Below, piece by piece: positions 2,266 through 62,803 of a stretch of 64,000 nucleotides of DNA (position 1 is its first letter; each line of letters starts with the position of its first letter). Source of the stretch: an uncultured bacterium (GTDB lineage Bacteria; Pseudomonadota; Alphaproteobacteria; Rhodospirillales; Rhodospirillaceae); the NCBI GenBank assembly GCA_903888485.1, contig CAISTS010000040.1:1-64000 (forward strand), given 5' to 3'. A program made the translations under genes and the position numbers. The notes beneath the pieces were generated by a model that was given only the letters and a program-made list of their open reading frames with translations, was not told where the DNA came from and did not search any database.

Positions 2266-3585
2266 ATGAAGACCAAGTACCTCGTACTCGCCGGCGTTGC
2301 CGCTGTTGCCATGACGGCTGCCGCCGGAGCGGCCGACCGGCGCAGCGACGAAACGCCCTACAGCACGCCGCCCGGACTCACGCTGATCGACGTCGTCAAG
2401 ATCGTCGACGCCGCATCGAACCAGTTCCTTTGGAAGCGCCTCGGCGATGCCAACGGCAAGCCGCTCTATACCTTAAACGACGACACCGAGATCGGCAAAT
2501 CGAAGTGCGTGGCGGATTGCGCCAAGGAATTTCCGCCGTTTCCGGCTCCGGCCGGCACCGTAGCCACCGGCGACTGGTCGATCGTCAACCGTCCCGACGG
2601 CATCAAACAGCTCTCCTATCAAAACCGCCCGCTTTATTACTATTCAGGCCAGGATCCCGTCGGAGAGCCGGCGGCCATCAACACCGCTTCGCTCGGCGCC
2701 GACAATCCGGCATTCCTCGATCCCGGCAGCGAATTTTTCTCGCCAAAGAAAGGCTGGCGCCGCGCCGCCTTCACGCCTGAGATGAACACGCCGACGCCCG
2801 GCGAGATGGAACTGGTGAGTATCGCGACCGCCAACGGCTATGGCCTGATCGATCCTTTGACGCGCAAGAGCGTCTACGCGCTAAAGACTCCGCCGAAGAA
2901 TCCCAAAGGCTGGACACCGGTCTATGCGCCAGGTGTGGCTATCCCCATCGGCGACTTCAGCGTTGTCGAGCGCGAGGATGGCACGCGCCAGTGGAGCTAT
3001 AAGAACAAGCCGCTCTACACCTACACCGGCGACTATTCACTGGGCGACATGAACGGCCTCAAGGTCGAGCAGGGTGCCCAGGTCGCGCTGGTCTACAAAC
3101 ACTTCCTGCCCGCCGAGATCGGCATCCGCGTATTCGACGGCCGTCCGCCGCTGATGGTCGATAAGAACGGCATGTCGGTCTATACGCAGTCGCGTCAGCA
3201 TTTGCAGTACGGCGGTCGCGAAACGCGCGACGGCTATCGTTACCACTACACGGAAGGCAAAGCGGTCGGCACCCGCGGCTGCATCGGCGAATGCCTGCAA
3301 ACCTGGAAGCCAATTCTCGCGCCGGCCAACGCCAAGTCGTGGGGTTATTGGGAAGTCGCCGCGCGCGACGACGGTTCGCGCCAATGGTCCTATAAGGGCA
3401 GCCCCTTGTACACCTACGCCGGCGACAAGAAGCCCGGCGACGTCGATGGCAACAGCATCCACGACATCATCTACGGCGACCCCGAAGGCAAGGTCGATCT
3501 GACCGTTACCGGCGGCGACGTGCTGCAGGGCAAGAACCGCTACGGTTCCGGCTTCTATTGGCACCTCGCCGGGCTGTTCTATTAG
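2266..3585 (+). CDS. Secreted repeat protein (COG4315 / Lipoprotein_15 type)
   Basis: Protein of 439 residues with a Sec signal peptide (about residues 1-22, cleaved after AGA). The mature part holds several copies of the short 'secreted repeat of unknown function' (PF03640-like): recurring PLYTYxGD or PLYYYSGQD strands preceded by DG-x-x-QWSYK, and Cys pairs (SKCVADC, RGCIGEC) at the start of repeats. I see at least three such units, around residues 40-130, 185-265 and 300-410. There is no lipobox cysteine near the signal cleavage site, so it is probably a soluble periplasmic protein. ATG 2266 is chosen over the upstream TTG 2263. It closes the DUF1588-DUF1552 operon. Function unknown; heme or metal binding has been speculated for related proteins but nothing here proves it. 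Confidence 0.75.
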   Translation: MKTKYLVLAGVAAVAMTAAAGAADRRSDETPYSTPPGLTLIDVVKIVDAASNQFLWKRLGDANGKPLYTLNDDTEIGKSKCVADCAKEFPPFPAPAGTVATGDWSIVNRPDGIKQLSYQNRPLYYYSGQDPVGEPAAINTASLGADNPAFLDPGSEFFSPKKGWRRAAFTPEMNTPTPGEMELVSIATANGYGLIDPLTRKSVYALKTPPKNPKGWTPVYAPGVAIPIGDFSVVEREDGTRQWSYKNKPLYTYTGDYSLGDMNGLKVEQGAQVALVYKHFLPAEIGIRVFDGRPPLMVDKNGMSVYTQSRQHLQYGGRETRDGYRYHYTEGKAVGTRGCIGECLQTWKPILAPANAKSWGYWEVAARDDGSRQWSYKGSPLYTYAGDKKPGDVDGNSIHDIIYGDPEGKVDLTVTGGDVLQGKNRYGSGFYWHLAGLFY

Positions 3586-26789: not shown

Positions 26790-28412
26790 ATGCGCCGTTT
26801 TTCGACATTCTTATTGGGATTCGCCGCGCCGCTGGCGCTGTTGCCGCAGGTGGCGGCCGCCGAAACAGGATCGAGCGCTTGCGACAAGGTGGCAGCAGTC
26901 ACACTCCCGAACACATCGGTGAAAGCGACATACCTGACGACCCAGACGCAGGTAGACGCGGCCTTCGCATCGCCCGACAGCCGTGTCGGCTCGACCCCGA
27001 TGAAGGCAACGCTGCCGTTGTGCCGCATCGAGGTGACCATCACGCCGGCGCCGGGCGCTGAGATCAAGTCTGAGTTCTGGCTGCCGCCGGCCGAGAAGTG
27101 GAACAGGCGCTTCCTCAGCATCGGTGCCGGCGGTTCCGCCGGCTTCATCGACCGGCGCGCGCTCGCGTCAGGCTCGGCGCAAGGCTATGCCGTATCGACC
27201 TCCGACGCCGGCAGCCACTCGCCCGTGCTGCTGCAGATGGCCTTCGGACAGAACCCCGAATGGCGCGAGAACTTCGCCCACCGCGGCGTGCACCTGACCG
27301 CCGTCGCCGGCAAGGCGCTGGTGCAAGCCTTCTACCAAGCCCCGCCCAAGGCCTCGCTGTTCATGGGTTGCTCGGGCGGCGGCTACGAAGCCATGAGCCT
27401 CGTCAATCACCACCCCGACGACTACGACGGCGTCATCGCCGGCGACCCCGCGCTCGATTGGGAGAAAACGTCGTTGTGGCAGGGCACGGTCTACAACGCC
27501 ACCAGCGCGCCCGGTGCGGCGATTCCGCGCGCCAAGCTCGCCAGTCTCAATAAGGCGTTGGTCGCGCAGTGTGATGCCCTCGACGGCGTCAAGGACGGCG
27601 TGCTCGACGATCCGCGTAAGTGCAAGCCCGACTTCAAAGCCCTGCTGTGCAAAGCTGGCGATGCGAACGATTGCATGACAGCGCCACAGATCACCGCGCT
27701 CGAGAAGATCTACGCGCCCTTCAAGCATCCGCGGACGGGCGAGCTACTGTTCCCCGGCTTCACTGTGGGCGCCGAAGATATGCCGGCGACGCGCTCGCGT
27801 CTGGCCGGCGAGCCCGACGGCTCCACCGTGACGGTGCACCAGCCGGGACCGCTCGTGTGGTTCAAACCGGACTTCACGGCCAAGGACTGGGCGAGCTTCG
27901 ACTTCGACAAGGGCACCGACAAGGCCATCAAAGACTTCGCGCCATGGGTCAACTCAAACCCCGACCTCAAGGCGTTCAAGGCCTCGGGCGGCAAGTTCAT
28001 CATGTACACCGGCTGGGCCGATCCCAACCTCAACCCCGAGAATATGGTGAACTACTACGAGAAGCTGAAGATGACGATGGGCGAGGGCGAAGCGCAGGCC
28101 TTCAGCCGCGCCTTCATGGTGCCCGGCATGGGCCACTGCAGCGGCGGTCCGGGACCGAACGTGTTCGGCCAGGATATCGGCGGCTCGCTCGGCCGGCAGA
28201 ACGACGCGGGCAACAATATCCTGATGGCGCTTGACCGCTGGGTGGTGGACGGCGTCGCGCCTGAGCAGATCATCGCGACCCGGTACGTCGACAACGACCG
28301 CAACAAGGGTGTGCAGCGGACCCGGCCGCTCTGCGCCTATCCGAAGGTCGCGCGCTATAGCGGCATGGGCAGTACCGACGAGGCCAAGAATTTCTCCTGC
28401 GTCGCGCCGTAG
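26790..28412 (+). CDS. Tannase/feruloyl esterase family hydrolase (canonical CS-D-HC)
   Basis: Protein of 540 residues with a signal peptide (about 1-25, ending VAA-AE). Member of the tannase/feruloyl esterase family, periplasmic or extracellular alpha/beta hydrolases that cleave ester bonds of aromatic acids. The nucleophile is S195 in MGCSGGGYE, next to C194; the catalytic His is H449 followed by C450 in GMGHCSGG, so the family disulfide C194-C450 linking serine and histidine neighbours can form. Substrate could be gallate, ferulate or a terephthalate-like ester. ATG 26790 follows GGGGAGAG. It is followed after about 100 bases by a nitroreductase gene. Confidence 0.85.
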   Translation: MRRFSTFLLGFAAPLALLPQVAAAETGSSACDKVAAVTLPNTSVKATYLTTQTQVDAAFASPDSRVGSTPMKATLPLCRIEVTITPAPGAEIKSEFWLPPAEKWNRRFLSIGAGGSAGFIDRRALASGSAQGYAVSTSDAGSHSPVLLQMAFGQNPEWRENFAHRGVHLTAVAGKALVQAFYQAPPKASLFMGCSGGGYEAMSLVNHHPDDYDGVIAGDPALDWEKTSLWQGTVYNATSAPGAAIPRAKLASLNKALVAQCDALDGVKDGVLDDPRKCKPDFKALLCKAGDANDCMTAPQITALEKIYAPFKHPRTGELLFPGFTVGAEDMPATRSRLAGEPDGSTVTVHQPGPLVWFKPDFTAKDWASFDFDKGTDKAIKDFAPWVNSNPDLKAFKASGGKFIMYTGWADPNLNPENMVNYYEKLKMTMGEGEAQAFSRAFMVPGMGHCSGGPGPNVFGQDIGGSLGRQNDAGNNILMALDRWVVDGVAPEQIIATRYVDNDRNKGVQRTRPLCAYPKVARYSGMGSTDEAKNFSCVAP

Positions 28413-42350: not shown

Positions 42351-43341
42351 CTATGGATCGTCACCATAAAGACCAACGCTGAGCGGCATGTTCGCGGCGA
42401 TGCGCGCGCGGTACATGCCTTCGGTATTGAAGCCCCAGGCCAGGGTGCCGTCGGGTGCGACCGCAATGACCCCGCCAGTATCGGTCCCGCCCAGCGCACG
42501 CAGTTCCTGCTGCACTACACGATCGACGGCCGCTTGCAGGGAGAGCCTCTTCAATTCCACCAAGGCGCAAATCTGACGCGCGACGCCCAGGCGGATGAAG
42601 TATTCGCCGGTGCCGGTCCCGGACACCGCGCAGGACGCGTTTGACGCATAGGTTCCCGCCCCGATGATGGGGCTATCGCCGACACGGCCCCAGCGTTTGC
42701 CGGTCATGCCACCGGTGGACGTCGCCGCCGCGACGTTGCCGTGCACGTCGCAGGCCACCGCGCCGATGGTCCCTTGCGCGCCTTCCTCGTAGGCAAGGAC
42801 GGCTTTTGCATCCGCCGCCACCGGGTGATGACTGGGGCGGGGTGGAATGGGTAGGTTGCGCGCCTGTAAGAATTTCTCCAGCGCACGCCAGCGTTGCTCG
42901 TTGAAGAAGTATCCGGGGTCCACGCATTCGATGCCTTGTTCGCGGCCGAAGGCCTCGGCCGGTTCGCCGATGAGCATGACGTGGGGCGAGTGCTCCATCA
43001 CAGTGCGCGCCAGCGAAATGGGGTTGCGCGTATGGCGAATGCCCGCCACCGCGCAAGGTCGCGCCGTCCATGATGGCGGCGTCCAGTTCATTGCGCCCCT
43101 CGGCGGTGAAAACCGCGCCGCGCCCGGCATTAAACAGCGGATCGTCCTCCAGCACACGCGCCACGGCCTCGACAACGTCCAGCGCGCTTTTGCCGTCCTT
43201 CAGCAGCAGCGCGCCTATCTGCGCGACCTGTGCCAGGGTGCCGCGATAGACGGTCTCTTGCGCAGCGCTCAGAGCATCGCGGCGGATCACGCCGGCGCCG
43301 CCATGCAAGGCCCGGGCCCAGGATTTAGCTGAAACGGTCAT
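42351..43341 (-). pseudogene. Isoaspartyl peptidase/asparaginase (IaaA-like), frameshifted
   Basis: The N-terminal part (43341 to about 43060) reads ALHGGAGVIRRD, LVEAVARVLEDDPLFNAGRGAVFT and AAIMDGATL in one frame. The family continues in a second frame with AVAGIRHTRNPISLARTVMEHSPHVML and on to 42351. The break lies near 43050-43065 around the codons after DGATL, and a one- or two-base indel explains it. The catalytic threonine motif GTIGAVACD and the later TSTGGMTGKRWGRVGDSP are intact. N-terminal nucleophile hydrolases of this family self-cleave before this threonine and hydrolyse beta-aspartyl peptides or asparagine. A sequencing error cannot be excluded, since the rest is unblemished. 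Confidence 0.75.
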
Positions 43342-43977: not shown

Positions 43978-45777
43978 ATGCAGATTCATTTCACGCGCGC
44001 GGCGCGTATTCTCAGCGTGTGTGCGGGTGTCAGCGCGGGAGCGCAGGCTGCCGAAACGCCATACGCGCCCGACACCAAGTTCTCCGAGATTTTCGGGCGC
44101 GCCGTCACAGTTACGCACGCCGGCAAACCGGTCACCGATCCAACGTTCGCAGATATCCTGGCGTCCGATGCCTCCGGCGCGTCGAACAGCTTCGCGCGCG
44201 ATGCCGTGAAAGCGCTTGAGGCTGCGGCCCCTTCGGACTGCAAGAGTCTGACATCTCTCAAGCTGCCCTGGACGCGCATCCTCTCCGTAGAGGAAGTGCC
44301 CGCCGCGCCCGAAGCCATGGCGCATTGCAAGGTGCTGGGTGTCATCGACAAGGAAATCAACTTCGAAGTCGACCTGCCGATTGTCACGGGATGGAACGGC
44401 AAATTCCTCATGGGCGGCGGCGGCGGATTCCTCGGCACACTGCAGAGCCAGATCAAGCCCGCGGCGCTGCACCGGGGCTACGCCACGGCCTCGACCGACA
44501 CCGGCCATTCTATTCCGGATGACGTCGGCGGCTCCTGGGCGCTACGCGATCCCGAGCGCCTCGCCAACTTCGGCCATCGCGGCACGCATCTCACCCAGGC
44601 CACGGCGAAGATCATCATCCGGGCCTACTACAAGAAGCCCATCGCCAAGTCCTACTACTACGGCTCCTCGGGCAGCGGGCGCGTCGCCATGGTGCAAGCG
44701 CAACGCTACCCTGAAGACTTCGACGGCATTGTGGCGGCTTGCCCGGCTTACAGCTGGAGCAAGGGCATGGCCCTCAGCATGGCCTGGACGCAGCAGGCTA
44801 TGTACCGCACCGCCGAGGATCAGTACGCCTTCCGCTCGGTGGTGCCGCCGTCCAAGGTCGCCAAGATGGATGACGCCATCTATGCCAAGTGCGACGCCAT
44901 CGACGGACTTAAGGATGATCTGATCACCACGCCGGCCGCGTGCAAGTTCGATCCCTACGAGGATCTCCCGCGCTGCGCCGCTGGCAAGGACAGCGCCGCG
45001 TGCTTCACGCGCGACGAGATCGAAGTCATCGCCAAAGTTCACGCCGGCCCTTCCAACAGCACGGGACAACTCTGGTCCGGCTGGCCCTACGGCGGCGAGA
45101 GCATCGACGGTGCTTGGACCGCGCCCAAAGGGTCCGCCTATGTGATCGGCACGCGCCTGGATGAGAGCGGGAAAGAGAAGGCGCCCGGCGTCTACGCCAG
45201 CCGCCACTACCTGCTCGGCAACGAGACCATGCGTTATCTGATGTTCAACGACCCCACCTACGACCTGCACCGCTTCAACTTCGAGACCGACACTGCGGCG
45301 GTCCTGCCGATGGCGGCCCAAGTGGACGGCGACAACCCCGATCTTTCGGGCCTCAAGAGTCGCGGCGGCAAGCTGCTGATGTGGGTCGGCTATTCCGACT
45401 GGGCTGTGAACGCCTATTCGACCATCGACTACTACGAACGCGTACTCGCCAAGATGGGCGGGCAGGGTGCGGTCGGCGATACCGCGCGCCTGTTTCTGAT
45501 GCCGGGCACCGGTCACTGCAATTCGAGCGATCCCAAGCGCAAGACTCCGACCACGGCGGACTTCCTCACCGCGCTCGAGGAATGGGTCGAGCAGGGTCGC
45601 GCGCCGGAGCGAATTTTGGCATCACACGTGAACGGTGATGCGGGGCGTGGTCAAAGCATGCCGATCAAGGGCACCATCGACCGCACCCGCCCGCTGTGTC
45701 CTTATCCCGCCGTCGCGACATATGTCGGCAAGGGCAACACCAACGACGCCGCCAATTTCCGCTGCGCCACGCCGTAA
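43978..45777 (+). CDS. Tannase/feruloyl esterase family hydrolase, variant active site
   Basis: Protein of 599 residues with a signal peptide (about 1-23, ending AQA-AE). The fold matches the tannase/feruloyl esterase family along its length (LMGGGGGFLGTLQ, GYATASTDTGHS, FGHRGTHLTQATAKIIIRAYY, DPKRKTPTTADFLTALEEWVEQG). The nucleophile is S231 in GSSGSGR, but its neighbour is S230, where most members have a cysteine. The catalytic His H513 is still followed by C514 (GTGHC). The family disulfide joining these neighbours therefore cannot form in the usual way. It is about 40% larger in the lid region than its relative at 26790 by rough comparison. A TonB receptor gene follows after 156 bases. 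Confidence 0.85.
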   Translation: MQIHFTRAARILSVCAGVSAGAQAAETPYAPDTKFSEIFGRAVTVTHAGKPVTDPTFADILASDASGASNSFARDAVKALEAAAPSDCKSLTSLKLPWTRILSVEEVPAAPEAMAHCKVLGVIDKEINFEVDLPIVTGWNGKFLMGGGGGFLGTLQSQIKPAALHRGYATASTDTGHSIPDDVGGSWALRDPERLANFGHRGTHLTQATAKIIIRAYYKKPIAKSYYYGSSGSGRVAMVQAQRYPEDFDGIVAACPAYSWSKGMALSMAWTQQAMYRTAEDQYAFRSVVPPSKVAKMDDAIYAKCDAIDGLKDDLITTPAACKFDPYEDLPRCAAGKDSAACFTRDEIEVIAKVHAGPSNSTGQLWSGWPYGGESIDGAWTAPKGSAYVIGTRLDESGKEKAPGVYASRHYLLGNETMRYLMFNDPTYDLHRFNFETDTAAVLPMAAQVDGDNPDLSGLKSRGGKLLMWVGYSDWAVNAYSTIDYYERVLAKMGGQGAVGDTARLFLMPGTGHCNSSDPKRKTPTTADFLTALEEWVEQGRAPERILASHVNGDAGRGQSMPIKGTIDRTRPLCPYPAVATYVGKGNTNDAANFRCATP

Positions 45778-45933: not shown

Positions 45934-47874
45934 GTGTTTCGTAAAAGTTGGTTCTTTGGTTGCCTGACAGCCGTCGGGCTGGTGTCCTTGAGTCAAACGG
46001 CCATCGCGCAACGCGCGGATGAGAACGCCGTCAATGCGGCGGAGGATGCGTTCGGCACGCGTGTCGGCACGGAAGGTGTAGGCCTATACGACTCACGCAA
46101 CGTCCGCGGCTTCGATCCCCAGCAAGCCGGCAACATGCGTCTCGACGGAATGTACTTCGACCAGCAGGCCGTGTTCGGCACCCGTCTGCAGCGCACCCAA
46201 TCCATGCGCGTCGGCATCACCGCGCAATCTTATCCTTTTCCGGCGCCCACCGGCATTGTCGACACGGCGCTGATCCGGCCTGCCAATCACCCCGTCACCA
46301 GCGCGTCGGTGCAGTACAGCGTGCCGGTCGGACAAAGGTCCTACACGCTCGATTATTCGACGCCGCTGATCCAGGACAAGCTCGGCATGTTCATCGGCAC
46401 GAATTACATGCCGGCGATCAGCGACTGGCACGGCAAGAACCCGTTCTGGACAGTGGCGACGCTCTGGCGCTGGACGCCAAGCGACAATTTCGAAGCCATC
46501 CCATTCCTCTACTATAACCAGCAGCTCGACGGCGAAGTGCAGCCGCAGATATTCACCTCCGGTGCCTATCGTCCGCCCCGCTTCGACCGCGACGTGTTCT
46601 TCGGACAGGATTGGGCCGACCGTCGCTACAACGACCGCAACTACGGTCTCATCATGCGCGGCACGCCGTTCAAAAATTGGCGCCTGCAGGGGGCGATCTT
46701 CCACTCTGATCAGGAGCGCCTCGACAACTACGTGGTGTTCTTCCGCAACACCCAGCCGAACGGTGTTGCCGACCTCGCCGTGCGGCGCGACCCGCACCAT
46801 CGCCTGACGTCGAACTCGGGCGAAGCGCGCGCCTCGGGCGTCTACACGCAAGGCAAATACCGTCACACCATTCACCTCGACGTGCGCGGGCGCGACACCG
46901 ACCGCCTCTTCGGGGGCGGCCAGACGCTCCCCTTTGGGCAAGCCACCATCGGCGTCGAGAAGCCGGTCGTGCGTCCGAACTACACCTACGGCGTGCGCGA
47001 TCGTGACGTAGTCAAGCAGATCACGCCGGGCATTTCCTACGGCGGCCAGTGGGCCGGTGTCGGCGAGTTTAGCGTTGGGCTGCAGAAGAGTTTCTATGAC
47101 CGCGAGTTCGGCAAGGAGAACGCCGCCGTGCCGACGCCGACCAAGAGCAGGCCCTGGCTCTACAACGCCACCGCCGCGGCAAACCCAACGCGCGATCTGG
47201 CGATCTATGCTGGTTATACGCGCGGTATCGAAGAGTTCGGCACCGCGCCCGACAACGCCGCCAATGCCGGCGCGCCGGTGCCCGCCGCGCTCACCAAGCA
47301 GATCGATGCCGGTCTGCGCTATCGCATCATCCCCGGCATGAACCTGGTCGCCGGTGTGTTCGAAGTCAGCAAACCGTACTTCGATCGCGACACGGCCAAC
47401 ATCTATACCAATGTCGGCAGTATCAAGCATCGCGGCATCGAGATATCGCTGACGGGACAGCCGATACCAGGACTCACGGTCGTTGCCGGCTCGGTGCTTC
47501 TGAAAGCCCGCATCTCGGGATTGTCGGTCGACCGTGGTTTGATCGGCAAGATTCCGATGGGCACGCCGCCCAAGATTTTCCGTCTCAGCCTGCAGTACGG
47601 CCCCGCGTCGTGGCACGGATTCTCGATCGACACGCAGACCGACTACACGTCGTCGCAATACGCCAACCGCTTGGACACTTTGCGTATTCCGGCGGCCATG
47701 ACGCTCGACCTCGGCATGCGCTACGCGTTCAAGATCAGCGAGATCACCGCCAATATCCGCGCGCAGATGCGTAACGCGTTCAATTCCTACGATTGGAACG
47801 TCGACGGCGCATCCGGGCGCTTTTATGTGAACGCGCCGCGCCGTTTCTCGGTGCGTCTCGCCGCCGACTTCTAG
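45934..47874 (+). CDS. Short TonB-dependent receptor-like protein
   Basis: Protein of 646 residues starting at GTG 45934 behind GGGGGT. Signal peptide about 1-25 (ending AIA-QR). The plug is unusually short: NAVNAAEDAFGTRVGTEGVGLYDSRNVRGFDPQQAGNMRLDGMYFDQQ occupies the place of the normal TonB box and plug start, and no typical VTAR-type box is visible. The barrel is recognisable (alternating aromatic strands, ending RRFSVRLAADF with terminal Phe). It could be a TonB receptor of a reduced subgroup. Its stop overlaps the convergent CoA ligase stop by 4 bases. Confidence 0.75.
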   Translation: MFRKSWFFGCLTAVGLVSLSQTAIAQRADENAVNAAEDAFGTRVGTEGVGLYDSRNVRGFDPQQAGNMRLDGMYFDQQAVFGTRLQRTQSMRVGITAQSYPFPAPTGIVDTALIRPANHPVTSASVQYSVPVGQRSYTLDYSTPLIQDKLGMFIGTNYMPAISDWHGKNPFWTVATLWRWTPSDNFEAIPFLYYNQQLDGEVQPQIFTSGAYRPPRFDRDVFFGQDWADRRYNDRNYGLIMRGTPFKNWRLQGAIFHSDQERLDNYVVFFRNTQPNGVADLAVRRDPHHRLTSNSGEARASGVYTQGKYRHTIHLDVRGRDTDRLFGGGQTLPFGQATIGVEKPVVRPNYTYGVRDRDVVKQITPGISYGGQWAGVGEFSVGLQKSFYDREFGKENAAVPTPTKSRPWLYNATAAANPTRDLAIYAGYTRGIEEFGTAPDNAANAGAPVPAALTKQIDAGLRYRIIPGMNLVAGVFEVSKPYFDRDTANIYTNVGSIKHRGIEISLTGQPIPGLTVVAGSVLLKARISGLSVDRGLIGKIPMGTPPKIFRLSLQYGPASWHGFSIDTQTDYTSSQYANRLDTLRIPAAMTLDLGMRYAFKISEITANIRAQMRNAFNSYDWNVDGASGRFYVNAPRRFSVRLAADF

Positions 47875-53134: not shown

Positions 53135-53182
53135 GTGGCGGCTGTGTCTCCTATACTCTCAAGGGATTCGGGGGAGGGATAT

Positions 53183-60516: not shown

Positions 60517-62803
60517 ATGCGCATTGCAAAGCCATATCTGCCGACGTTGCTCGCGACCACGTGCTTCGTGGCGGCCAGCGCCGCGCTCGTGCAGCCTGCC
60601 CAAGCCGCCGCGCCCGCCGGTGTGCCCACCGTTGCGGACGGAATCGCCGGCACCGTCACCAGCGCCAAAGGCCCGGAGGCCGGCGTCTGGGTGATCGCCG
60701 AAACCAACGACCTGCCCACGCGTCTGATCAAGATCGTCGTCACCGACGATCAAGGCCGTTTCGTGCTGCCCGAACTGCCGAAGGCGAAGTATGAGGTATG
60801 GGTGCGCGGTTACGGCCTGGTTGACTCAGCCAAGATTCAGGGCGAGCCCGGAAAGAACCTCAATCTGAAGGCCACCGTCGCGCCCGACGCCAAGACCGCG
60901 GCGCAGATCTATCCCGCCAACTACTGGTTCTCATTGATCAAGCCGCCGGCCGAGAGCGAATTTCCCGGAACCGGCGTGAAGGGCAACGGCATCTCGGGGG
61001 CGATGCGCACCCAGCAGATGTGGGTGCAGCATATGAAGCACGGCTGCATCCAGTGTCATCAGCAGGGGGACGTGCCGACGCGCCAGCTGATCGACAACAC
61101 GCCCGAAGGCTGGGGCCGAGCGCATCGTCAAGGCGCGGCCTGACGGCGATCATGTCCTCGGTGACCACGGCAAGGATTTCGCCAACGACATGAGCAACCG
61201 CATGACGCTGTTCGGGCGCGCGCGCGGACTTGAGATGTGGAGCGACTGGACCAAGCGCATCGCCGCGGGCGAGCTGCCGAAGGAAGCGCCGCCGCGCCCC
61301 GCAGGCGTCGAGCGCAATCTCGTCATCACGTCGTGGGATTGGGCCAACGGGCGATACGTGCACGACAACATCTCGACCGACCGCCACAACCCGACGGTCA
61401 ACGCCAACGGACCGATCTACGGCATCATCGGTATGATCGGCTACATCGAGGTACTGCATCCGACCACCGGCAAGCAGGAGGAAATCGCCTATCAGGTGAA
61501 CCTCAACAAGAACGTCGAGCTTCTACCGGGCGACGTCGTGCCGGATGCTTTCCCGCACAACCCGATGCTCGATAAGAAGAACCGCCTATGGATCACCGAC
61601 CTCGGCCGTTACGGCGGTCCGAAGCCCGGTACGCCGCCGCGCCCGAACAAGATGGCCTACTGCACCGACCCGGGCTTCAAGTACGCCAAGTACTGGCCGC
61701 AGCCGGGCACGGCCAGCAACACGGCGGTCATCTACGACCACAATAAAAAGCACATCGAAGGCATTCCGCTGTGCAACGGGCAGCACCATCTGATGATGAA
61801 CGTGAATAATCGCGACATGTATTTCTCGGGCGGCGATAGCCGTGTCGCGAGCTGGGTGGACATCGACGCCTGGGATGCGACCAAGGATCCGACCAAGGCT
61901 TACGGTTGGTGCCCGCTGGTGCTCGATACAAACTCCAAGACCCCGGCGAAAGTCGGCGGCCTTTCCGAAGTATCGATCACGCCCGACCGCACGCAATGGA
62001 ATGAACCCGCCGTCGCCGGCGGCAGCATGCCGATGGGCGATGAAGGCGGCGGAGGTATCGCCGCCGATAAGCCGATCGATCCCAACAAGGACACGCGCAT
62101 CCAGGGCTTCCTCTACGGCATCGATGCCGACCCGAAAACGGGCGCCATGTGGTTCGCGCAGACCGATCCGTTCCCGTCGGGCCTGGTTGCGTTCCATGCC
62201 GGCACCAATCCACCGGAAACCTGCAAGACCGAGATGTATACGGCGCCGAAGATCGACGCCAACAACTACGCCGCCTACATCAATCGCGGTGTTTCGGTGG
62301 ACAGCAAGGGCATCGCTTATGCGTACTACGGCTCGGGCCAGCTCGGCCGCTTCGATCGCACCCAGTGTAAGGTCATGAGCGGTCCGACGATCGCCAAGGG
62401 CCAGCACTGCCCCGAAGGCTGGTCGTTCTTTGATGCGCCCGGTCCGAAGTTCGATGGTGTGAAGGTCGGCACCGCCGACTTCCACTACCTCGGCTGGGTC
62501 GATCTGCATGACACGCTCGGCATGGGTAAGGACATCTCGATCAGCACGGGCACCAACTCGGACTCGCTGTTGGCCTTTGACGATGCGACCAAGAAGTACA
62601 GCGTGCTGCGTGTGCCGTACCCGCGCGGTTTCCACACGCGCGGGCTCGACGGGCGCATTGATGATCCGAAGGCGGGCTGGAAGGGCAAGGGTGTCTACGC
62701 GACTTACGCCTCGCAGCCGGTCTGGCACCAGGAAGGCGGCGAAGACGCTTCCGGTCCGCAGCTGGTGAAGTTCCAGGTGCGTCCGAACCCGCTCGCCTAC
62801 TAA
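60517..62803 (+). pseudogene. Haem-motif propeller-like secreted protein, paralog H (frameshifted)
   Basis: Restored length about 761 residues. The first part (60517 to about 61112) has a signal peptide, regulatory-like domain (GIAGTVTSAKGPEAGVWVIAET) and haem motif CIQCH at 177-181. At the codons for NTPEGW the run TGGGG has one G more than expected. The frame then reads into a TGA at 61141-61143, while the family sequence AERIVKARPDGDHVLGDHGKDF continues in the next frame to TAA 62803. All downstream conserved cysteines (YCTDPG, PLCNGQHH, GWCPLV, ETCKTEM, TQCKVM, QHCPEG) are intact and no other damage is seen. This fits a recent mutation, a homopolymer sequencing error, or programmed slippage. 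It resembles paralog B most (KGxGxTMKTQQMW-like region and QQGD). Confidence 0.8.

Follow-up and report, generated by a model that had tools for sequence, protein, structure and literature searches.

We describe here a tannase/feruloyl-esterase family protein, P0001 (599 aa), whose active-site disulfide, a hallmark of the MHETase/feruloyl esterase family, has probably been relocated rather than lost. In P0001 and five relatives (the swap clade), sequence comparisons point to C255 as the residue that replaces the β5 cysteine as partner of C514, the cysteine directly following the catalytic histidine. While family, fold and triad were already known, the relocated active-site disulfide would be new, and excerpts of the open-access literature yielded no description of it for the tannase family. 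On balance, though with less assurance, we also favor the wider scenario of a once-only natural move of a conserved disulfide from β5 to β6, with its His-loop end kept, the position before the catalytic serine (Ser-1) set free to vary among S, A, T and Q, and the substrate pocket retuned. If true, this would be a clean case of how disulfides move in evolution, would suggest a rule for designing enzymes with an open Ser-1 position and an intact fold, and would mean that evolution found its own way to the site that was engineered in PETase (Trp159).

The esterase and its cysteines

P0001 is encoded on the plus strand at positions 43978..45777 of the window (the whole stretch of 64,000 nucleotides analyzed) by an ORF with an ATG start. 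The protein matches Pfam PF07519 (Tannase) over residues 115-597 with 370.7 bits, passing the gathering cut-off of 29.8, and matched no NCBIfam family at E<=1e-5. Residues 1-25 (43978..44052, plus strand) read by eye as a likely Sec signal peptide, and P0001 is apparently a secreted esterase. By alignment its Ser-Asp-His triad is S231-D474-H513 (plus strand, as are all residues below), with the nucleophile S231 (44668..44670) aligned to MHETase S225 and invariant in the swap clade, the acid D474 (45397..45399) corresponding to MHETase D492 and H513 (45514..45516) to MHETase H528; the predicted model has the alpha/beta-hydrolase fold. P0001 would most likely act as a conventional serine esterase in which S231 attacks the ester while H513 and D474 relay protons, the substrate presumably being a phenolic or similar ester.

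The sequence reads YYYGS230S231GSGR around the nucleophile, GTGH513C514N around the histidine and GIVAAC255PAY around C255. P0001 is a PF07519 member outside the CS-D-HC majority type: the residue directly before the catalytic serine is S230 (44665..44667), a position held by Cys in 175/197 family members, and a cysteine (C514, 45517..45519) directly follows the catalytic histidine. The first-pass annotation had reported this asymmetry, and ORF and alignment bear it out. It was equally right that a sister enzyme keeps both cysteines: the sister tannase (26790..28412, plus strand) reads GCSGGG and GHC, with C194 and C450 intact as counted from the ATG at 26790 (C201 and C457 from an upstream TTG).

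P0001 contains 11 cysteines, one of which (C15) lies within the apparent signal peptide. MHETase has the disulfides C51-C92, C224-C529, C303-C320, C340-C348 and C577-C599 (PMC10546322; this and all further papers are cited from excerpts), and eight of these ten cysteines, making up the four non-active-site disulfides, are matched by position in P0001: C88 and C117 (44239..44328) are the counterparts of C51-C92, C305 and C322 (44890..44943) of C303-C320, C333 and C342 (44974..45003) of C340-C348, and C574 and C596 (45697..45765) of C577-C599. The pairwise alignment of P0001 with MHETase does not cover C88, which was placed through its conservation in the family alignment; there, both C88 and C117 occur in 6/6 swap proteins and in 175/175 intact ones. 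With these eight mature cysteines accounted for, C255 and C514 are left as a pair by elimination. C514 aligns with MHETase C529, and C255 (44740..44742), at the end of strand β6, aligns with MHETase Ala249 (S225 + 24); aligned in this way, the active-site region of P0001 has one cysteine lost and one gained.

Cysteine columns across the family

The cysteine columns 230, 255 and 514 (P0001 numbering) were counted over 197 distinct PF07519 proteins of more than 380 aa, which remained after removal of duplicates and three short pieces. The loci came from the genus (19 genomes), the family (73 and 72 genomes), class and phylum samples, six named records and 12 plasmid matches, so that the sample is weighted to the host family of genomes and to Pseudomonadota. 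Cysteines at 230 and 514 but not 255 were present in 175 proteins, 16 proteins had none of the three, and six combined C255 and C514 with another residue at 230; all other combinations were absent. C514 was thus found in exactly the 181 proteins with C230 or C255 and in 0/16 without both (Fisher test among the 22 proteins without C230, p=1.3e-5 with kinship ignored), while C230 never occurred together with C255 (0/197), leaving no three-cysteine intermediate (C230, C255 and C514) in this set. C255 itself marks 6/6 swap-clade members and 0/191 others. In the six, C255 and C514 are constant, whereas residue 230 is S, A, T, T, Q and Q.

These counts bear on the claim of the first-pass annotation that C514 is unpaired, which is probably wrong. 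On that claim, the disulfide would simply have been lost, with C514 left as a lone free thiol and stability or redox sensitivity altered. S230 does stand in place of a cysteine and the bond is known by inference only, yet 0/197 proteins carry C514 without C230 or C255, and all 16 proteins without those two also lack C514; we consider a lone C514 very unlikely. The presence of C255, together with the absence of any partnerless C514 among the 197 proteins, rules it out as the best reading. The annotation had proposed an alignment to look for another conserved cysteine that could pair with C514, and at the sequence level C255, which it had overlooked, is such a residue. Relocation of the bond to C255 therefore remains the preferred reading.

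That the shifted cysteine reflects misalignment or misassembly is barely credible. The draft genome does consist of 89 contigs, and a nearby gene looks frameshifted. On the other hand, the spacing from the catalytic serine to column 255 is 24 residues in 6/6 swap proteins and in 184/191 others (25 in the remaining seven), and each of the 15 pairings of clade members has dN<dS. Artefact or sequencing noise was rejected, as six full-length genes from four genomes lack a cysteine at Ser-1 and carry four different residues there. Column 255 of the 175 intact proteins holds A in 124, D in 19, S in 10, N in 9, G in 8, E in 2, V in 2 and H in 1.

The first-pass annotation had also described the CS-D-HC arrangement as defining the family. 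The cysteine pair at Ser-1 and His+1 is typical (175/197 here) but not strictly defining. Conservation of the active-site pair in the family has been given as '>80%' (PMC6461665), a figure which implies members without the disulfide, and such members were also seen here. The 16 proteins without all three cysteines further indicate that the fold can do without the bond. Of note, the supplement of PMC7568301 covers cysteine conservation over 6,671 sequences, and relocated cases could figure there.

Geometry of the proposed bond and related enzymes

In an AlphaFold model of P0001 (eight sequences, mean pLDDT 73.6), strands span residues 224-230 and 250-254, i.e. they end at S230 and one residue before C255, with middling confidence at both cysteines (block pLDDT 72 for 251-260 and 65 for 511-520). 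We take the Ser-1 partner of MHETase to lie at the end of β5 and PETase C203 at the end of β7, with β6 between them. Since the His loop is bonded to the β5 end in MHETase and to the β7 end in PETase, the β6 end, where C255 sits, is bracketed as a feasible partner. Besides, Asp176 of pancreatic lipase presumably sits on β6, and its distance from Ser152 (24) equals that from S231 to C255. The triad of that lipase is Ser152-Asp176-His263 (PMC7587340), and in alpha/beta hydrolases the triad acid usually lies at the β7 end but has moved to β6 in many clusters (PMC11878206). As for the two bonds that serve as reference points, the His+1 cysteine of MHETase is bonded to the Ser-1 cysteine, C224-C529 (PMC7568301), while in PETase the His+2 residue C239 is bonded to C203, three residues before the catalytic Asp206 (PMC10546322).

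Taken together with the family counts, a C255-C514 disulfide would hold the His loop, keeping it pinned to the sheet near the active site as C224-C529 does in MHETase, with the partner of C514 shifted from the end of β5 to the end of the adjacent β6. With the β5 cysteine gone, Ser-1 would be free to vary, and the range of residues seen at 230 (S, A, T and Q) hints that this site contributes to the substrate pocket, which the freed position may now tune. The altered specificity raised by the first-pass annotation is possible for P0001 because position 230 is free to vary.

It is conceivable, if improbable, that C255 and C514, rather than being permanently bonded, serve reversibly as a redox switch or bind a metal next to the catalytic histidine. 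By homology both cysteines lie near that histidine, and two clade members add vicinal cysteines beside the catalytic aspartate. However, P0001 looks secreted, and in secreted proteins structural disulfides are the rule. Nor is any redox partner tied to the gene, and the equivalent bond is considered structural in MHETase and fungal esterases (PMC7568301, PMC6461665). A DSBA-like gene lies ~7 kb off at 53135. A structural C255-C514 disulfide thus remains the favored reading. How much such a bond can matter is illustrated by MHETase, where three full-length mutants altering only the active-site disulfide ended up in inclusion bodies or were not expressed, and the two lidless variants that could be produced in its absence had low activity (PMC7568301).

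Structurally, the P0001 model resembles feruloyl esterases and MHETase (Z 35.6-38.8, rmsd 2.2-2.9) as well as Aspergillus niger tannase (Z 31.0). With Ideonella sakaiensis MHETase (PDB 6QG9, 6QZ1-4) it shares the fold over residues ~80-599 (Z ~36), the triad and, by position, 4/5 disulfides, but differs in having S230 at the C224 position and C255 at the A249 position; identity over the structural alignment is 32-33%, and MHET activity is not implied. Feruloyl esterase B of Aspergillus oryzae (3WMT; Z 38.8) and feruloyl esterase C of Fusarium oxysporum (6FAT; Z 38.5) share the triad and are among the best structural matches, at 26-27% identity. The 3WMT structure, in the 2014 account by Suzuki, reportedly includes a disulfide near the triad. 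Unlike P0001, 3WMT has a cysteine at Ser-1 (PMC6461665). The C203-C239 bond of IsPETase is likewise a disulfide tying the His loop, at His+2, to a residue close to another triad residue, yet its partner C203 precedes the catalytic aspartate by three residues (PMC10546322). PETase lacks the lid of MHETase and carries Trp159 at Ser-1, one of the two positions altered in a published improved PETase (PMC7568301). Finally, tannase-family members with both active-site cysteines absent (e.g. L046 from Alloalcanivorax, L236 from a Xanthomonas plasmid and L068-L072) resemble P0001 in lacking a Ser-1 cysteine, but differ from it in also lacking the His-side cysteine and a cysteine at column 255.

A second disulfide alternation exists within PF07519, namely between a GCGGFCG-type pair near the oxyanion hole (P0001 columns 148 and 152) and a C-terminal pair (574 and 596; MHETase C577-C599). 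The C-terminal pair only was present in 101 of the 197 proteins and the loop pair only in 91 (13 of them gapped at the C-terminal columns), whereas four had both and one truncated protein had neither. This alternation is much commoner than the active-site swap.

Range, history and genomic surroundings of the swap clade

The swap proteins (P0001, L012, L013, L014, L023 and L024) stem from 4/19 genus genomes (G000, G014, G015 and G018); shared 31-mers identify L041 and L042, both from named records, with L012 and L014, respectively. Besides, G008 contains a 130-aa C-terminal piece at a contig end, 63% identical to P0001, in which His-Cys is kept and whose serine side lies beyond the contig. The searches further afield used overlapping genome samples, thresholds that cut weaker matches and, at the order, class and phylum levels, the best few candidates per genome; within this scope, swap-type relatives beyond the genus were absent from the family matches (73 genomes, E<=1e-80) and the order matches (317 genomes, 1e-80), the window's own genome was the sole one matched by a clade profile in a class sample (385 genomes, 1e-110), and the matches outside the genus in a second class sample searched with that profile (289 genomes, 1e-70) and in a phylum sample (200 genomes, 1e-60) included no swap-type protein. 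On plasmids, 161 records match P0001, all at <60% identity, and the swap type was absent from the 12 tannases inspected among the 30 matches listed of these 161. Across the genomes covered by these sequence searches, the swap type turned up in this genus alone.

In a maximum-likelihood tree of 47 proteins, calculated with columns 230, 254, 255 and 514 left out, the six swap proteins form one branch with support 100/100, and the swap label changes once. Since this makes the swap a single evolutionary event, the six proteins cannot be counted as separate pieces of evidence for the C255-C514 pairing. The both-absent state accounts for five changes on the same tree, which gives no direction, with C230 and C514 changing together each time. 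Outside the swap clade, five independent pairs that differ in C230 could be compared, and C514 follows in 5/5 (sign test p=0.06, the minimum possible with five pairs). The fork joining the clade to its putative sister group has support 90/51, and an earlier quick tree had joined the clade to mainly both-absent proteins with support 33. The swap may have arisen by loss and regain or via a three-cysteine intermediate. Within the clade, dN is 0.14-0.43 and dS 0.79-1.97, with dN<dS in 15/15 pairs; this purifying selection makes the swap-clade genes look like working genes. The vicinal cysteines mentioned above occur as DWCCN after the catalytic aspartate in L014 and L024, so that other pairings are possible in those two. 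A vicinal pair in the same place (SDPCC) is found outside the clade in L238, a Croceicoccus plasmid tannase.

Just 3' of P0001 lies a gene for a TonB-receptor-like protein (45934..47874, plus strand), which scores 92.6 bits with TIGR01783, below the cut-off of 223.5, matches no Pfam family and has an orthologue of 61% identity in the same place beside L012/L041. The gene order of the window (Ku, asparaginase, esterase, receptor) is retained there. L014 likewise adjoins a TonB-dependent receptor, while the surroundings of L013 and L023 include gyrA-like and uvrA-like genes, and two Abhydrolase_10 genes lie close to L024. As neighbors thus differ between swap-clade members, no substrate is drawn from this context. 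The Asparaginase_2 family gene of the window (42351-43341, minus strand) is split into two overlapping frames, whereas the L041 orthologue (2417-3388) is one 323-aa frame; this comparison suggests a frameshift or a misreading in the copy of the window. Further downstream, two adjacent ORFs (60517-62803, plus strand) are possibly one interrupted receptor-like gene; the first weakly matches CarboxypepD_reg, and the second has no Pfam match. Rfam at gathering scores found nothing within the window.

PF07519 genes are present in 30/72 genomes of the host family, with up to 10 per genome. The genome that carries P0001 (G000), a 3.5 Mb draft, has ten, on contigs 10, 29, 32, 40, 61 and 74, three of them consecutive on contig 32. 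Besides, the catalytic serine itself is replaced in 12/185 tannase-family proteins: by Asp in L127 and L135, by Ala in L025, L027 and L207, and by Gly, along with a change of the catalytic Asp to Glu, in L166, L167, L170, L172, L173, L178 and L185, the histidine being changed in five. Serine-replaced copies on contig 97 of G006 and contig 25 of G017 stand in tandem beside intact copies, and by sequence all 12 are candidates for pseudoenzymes or altered chemistries.
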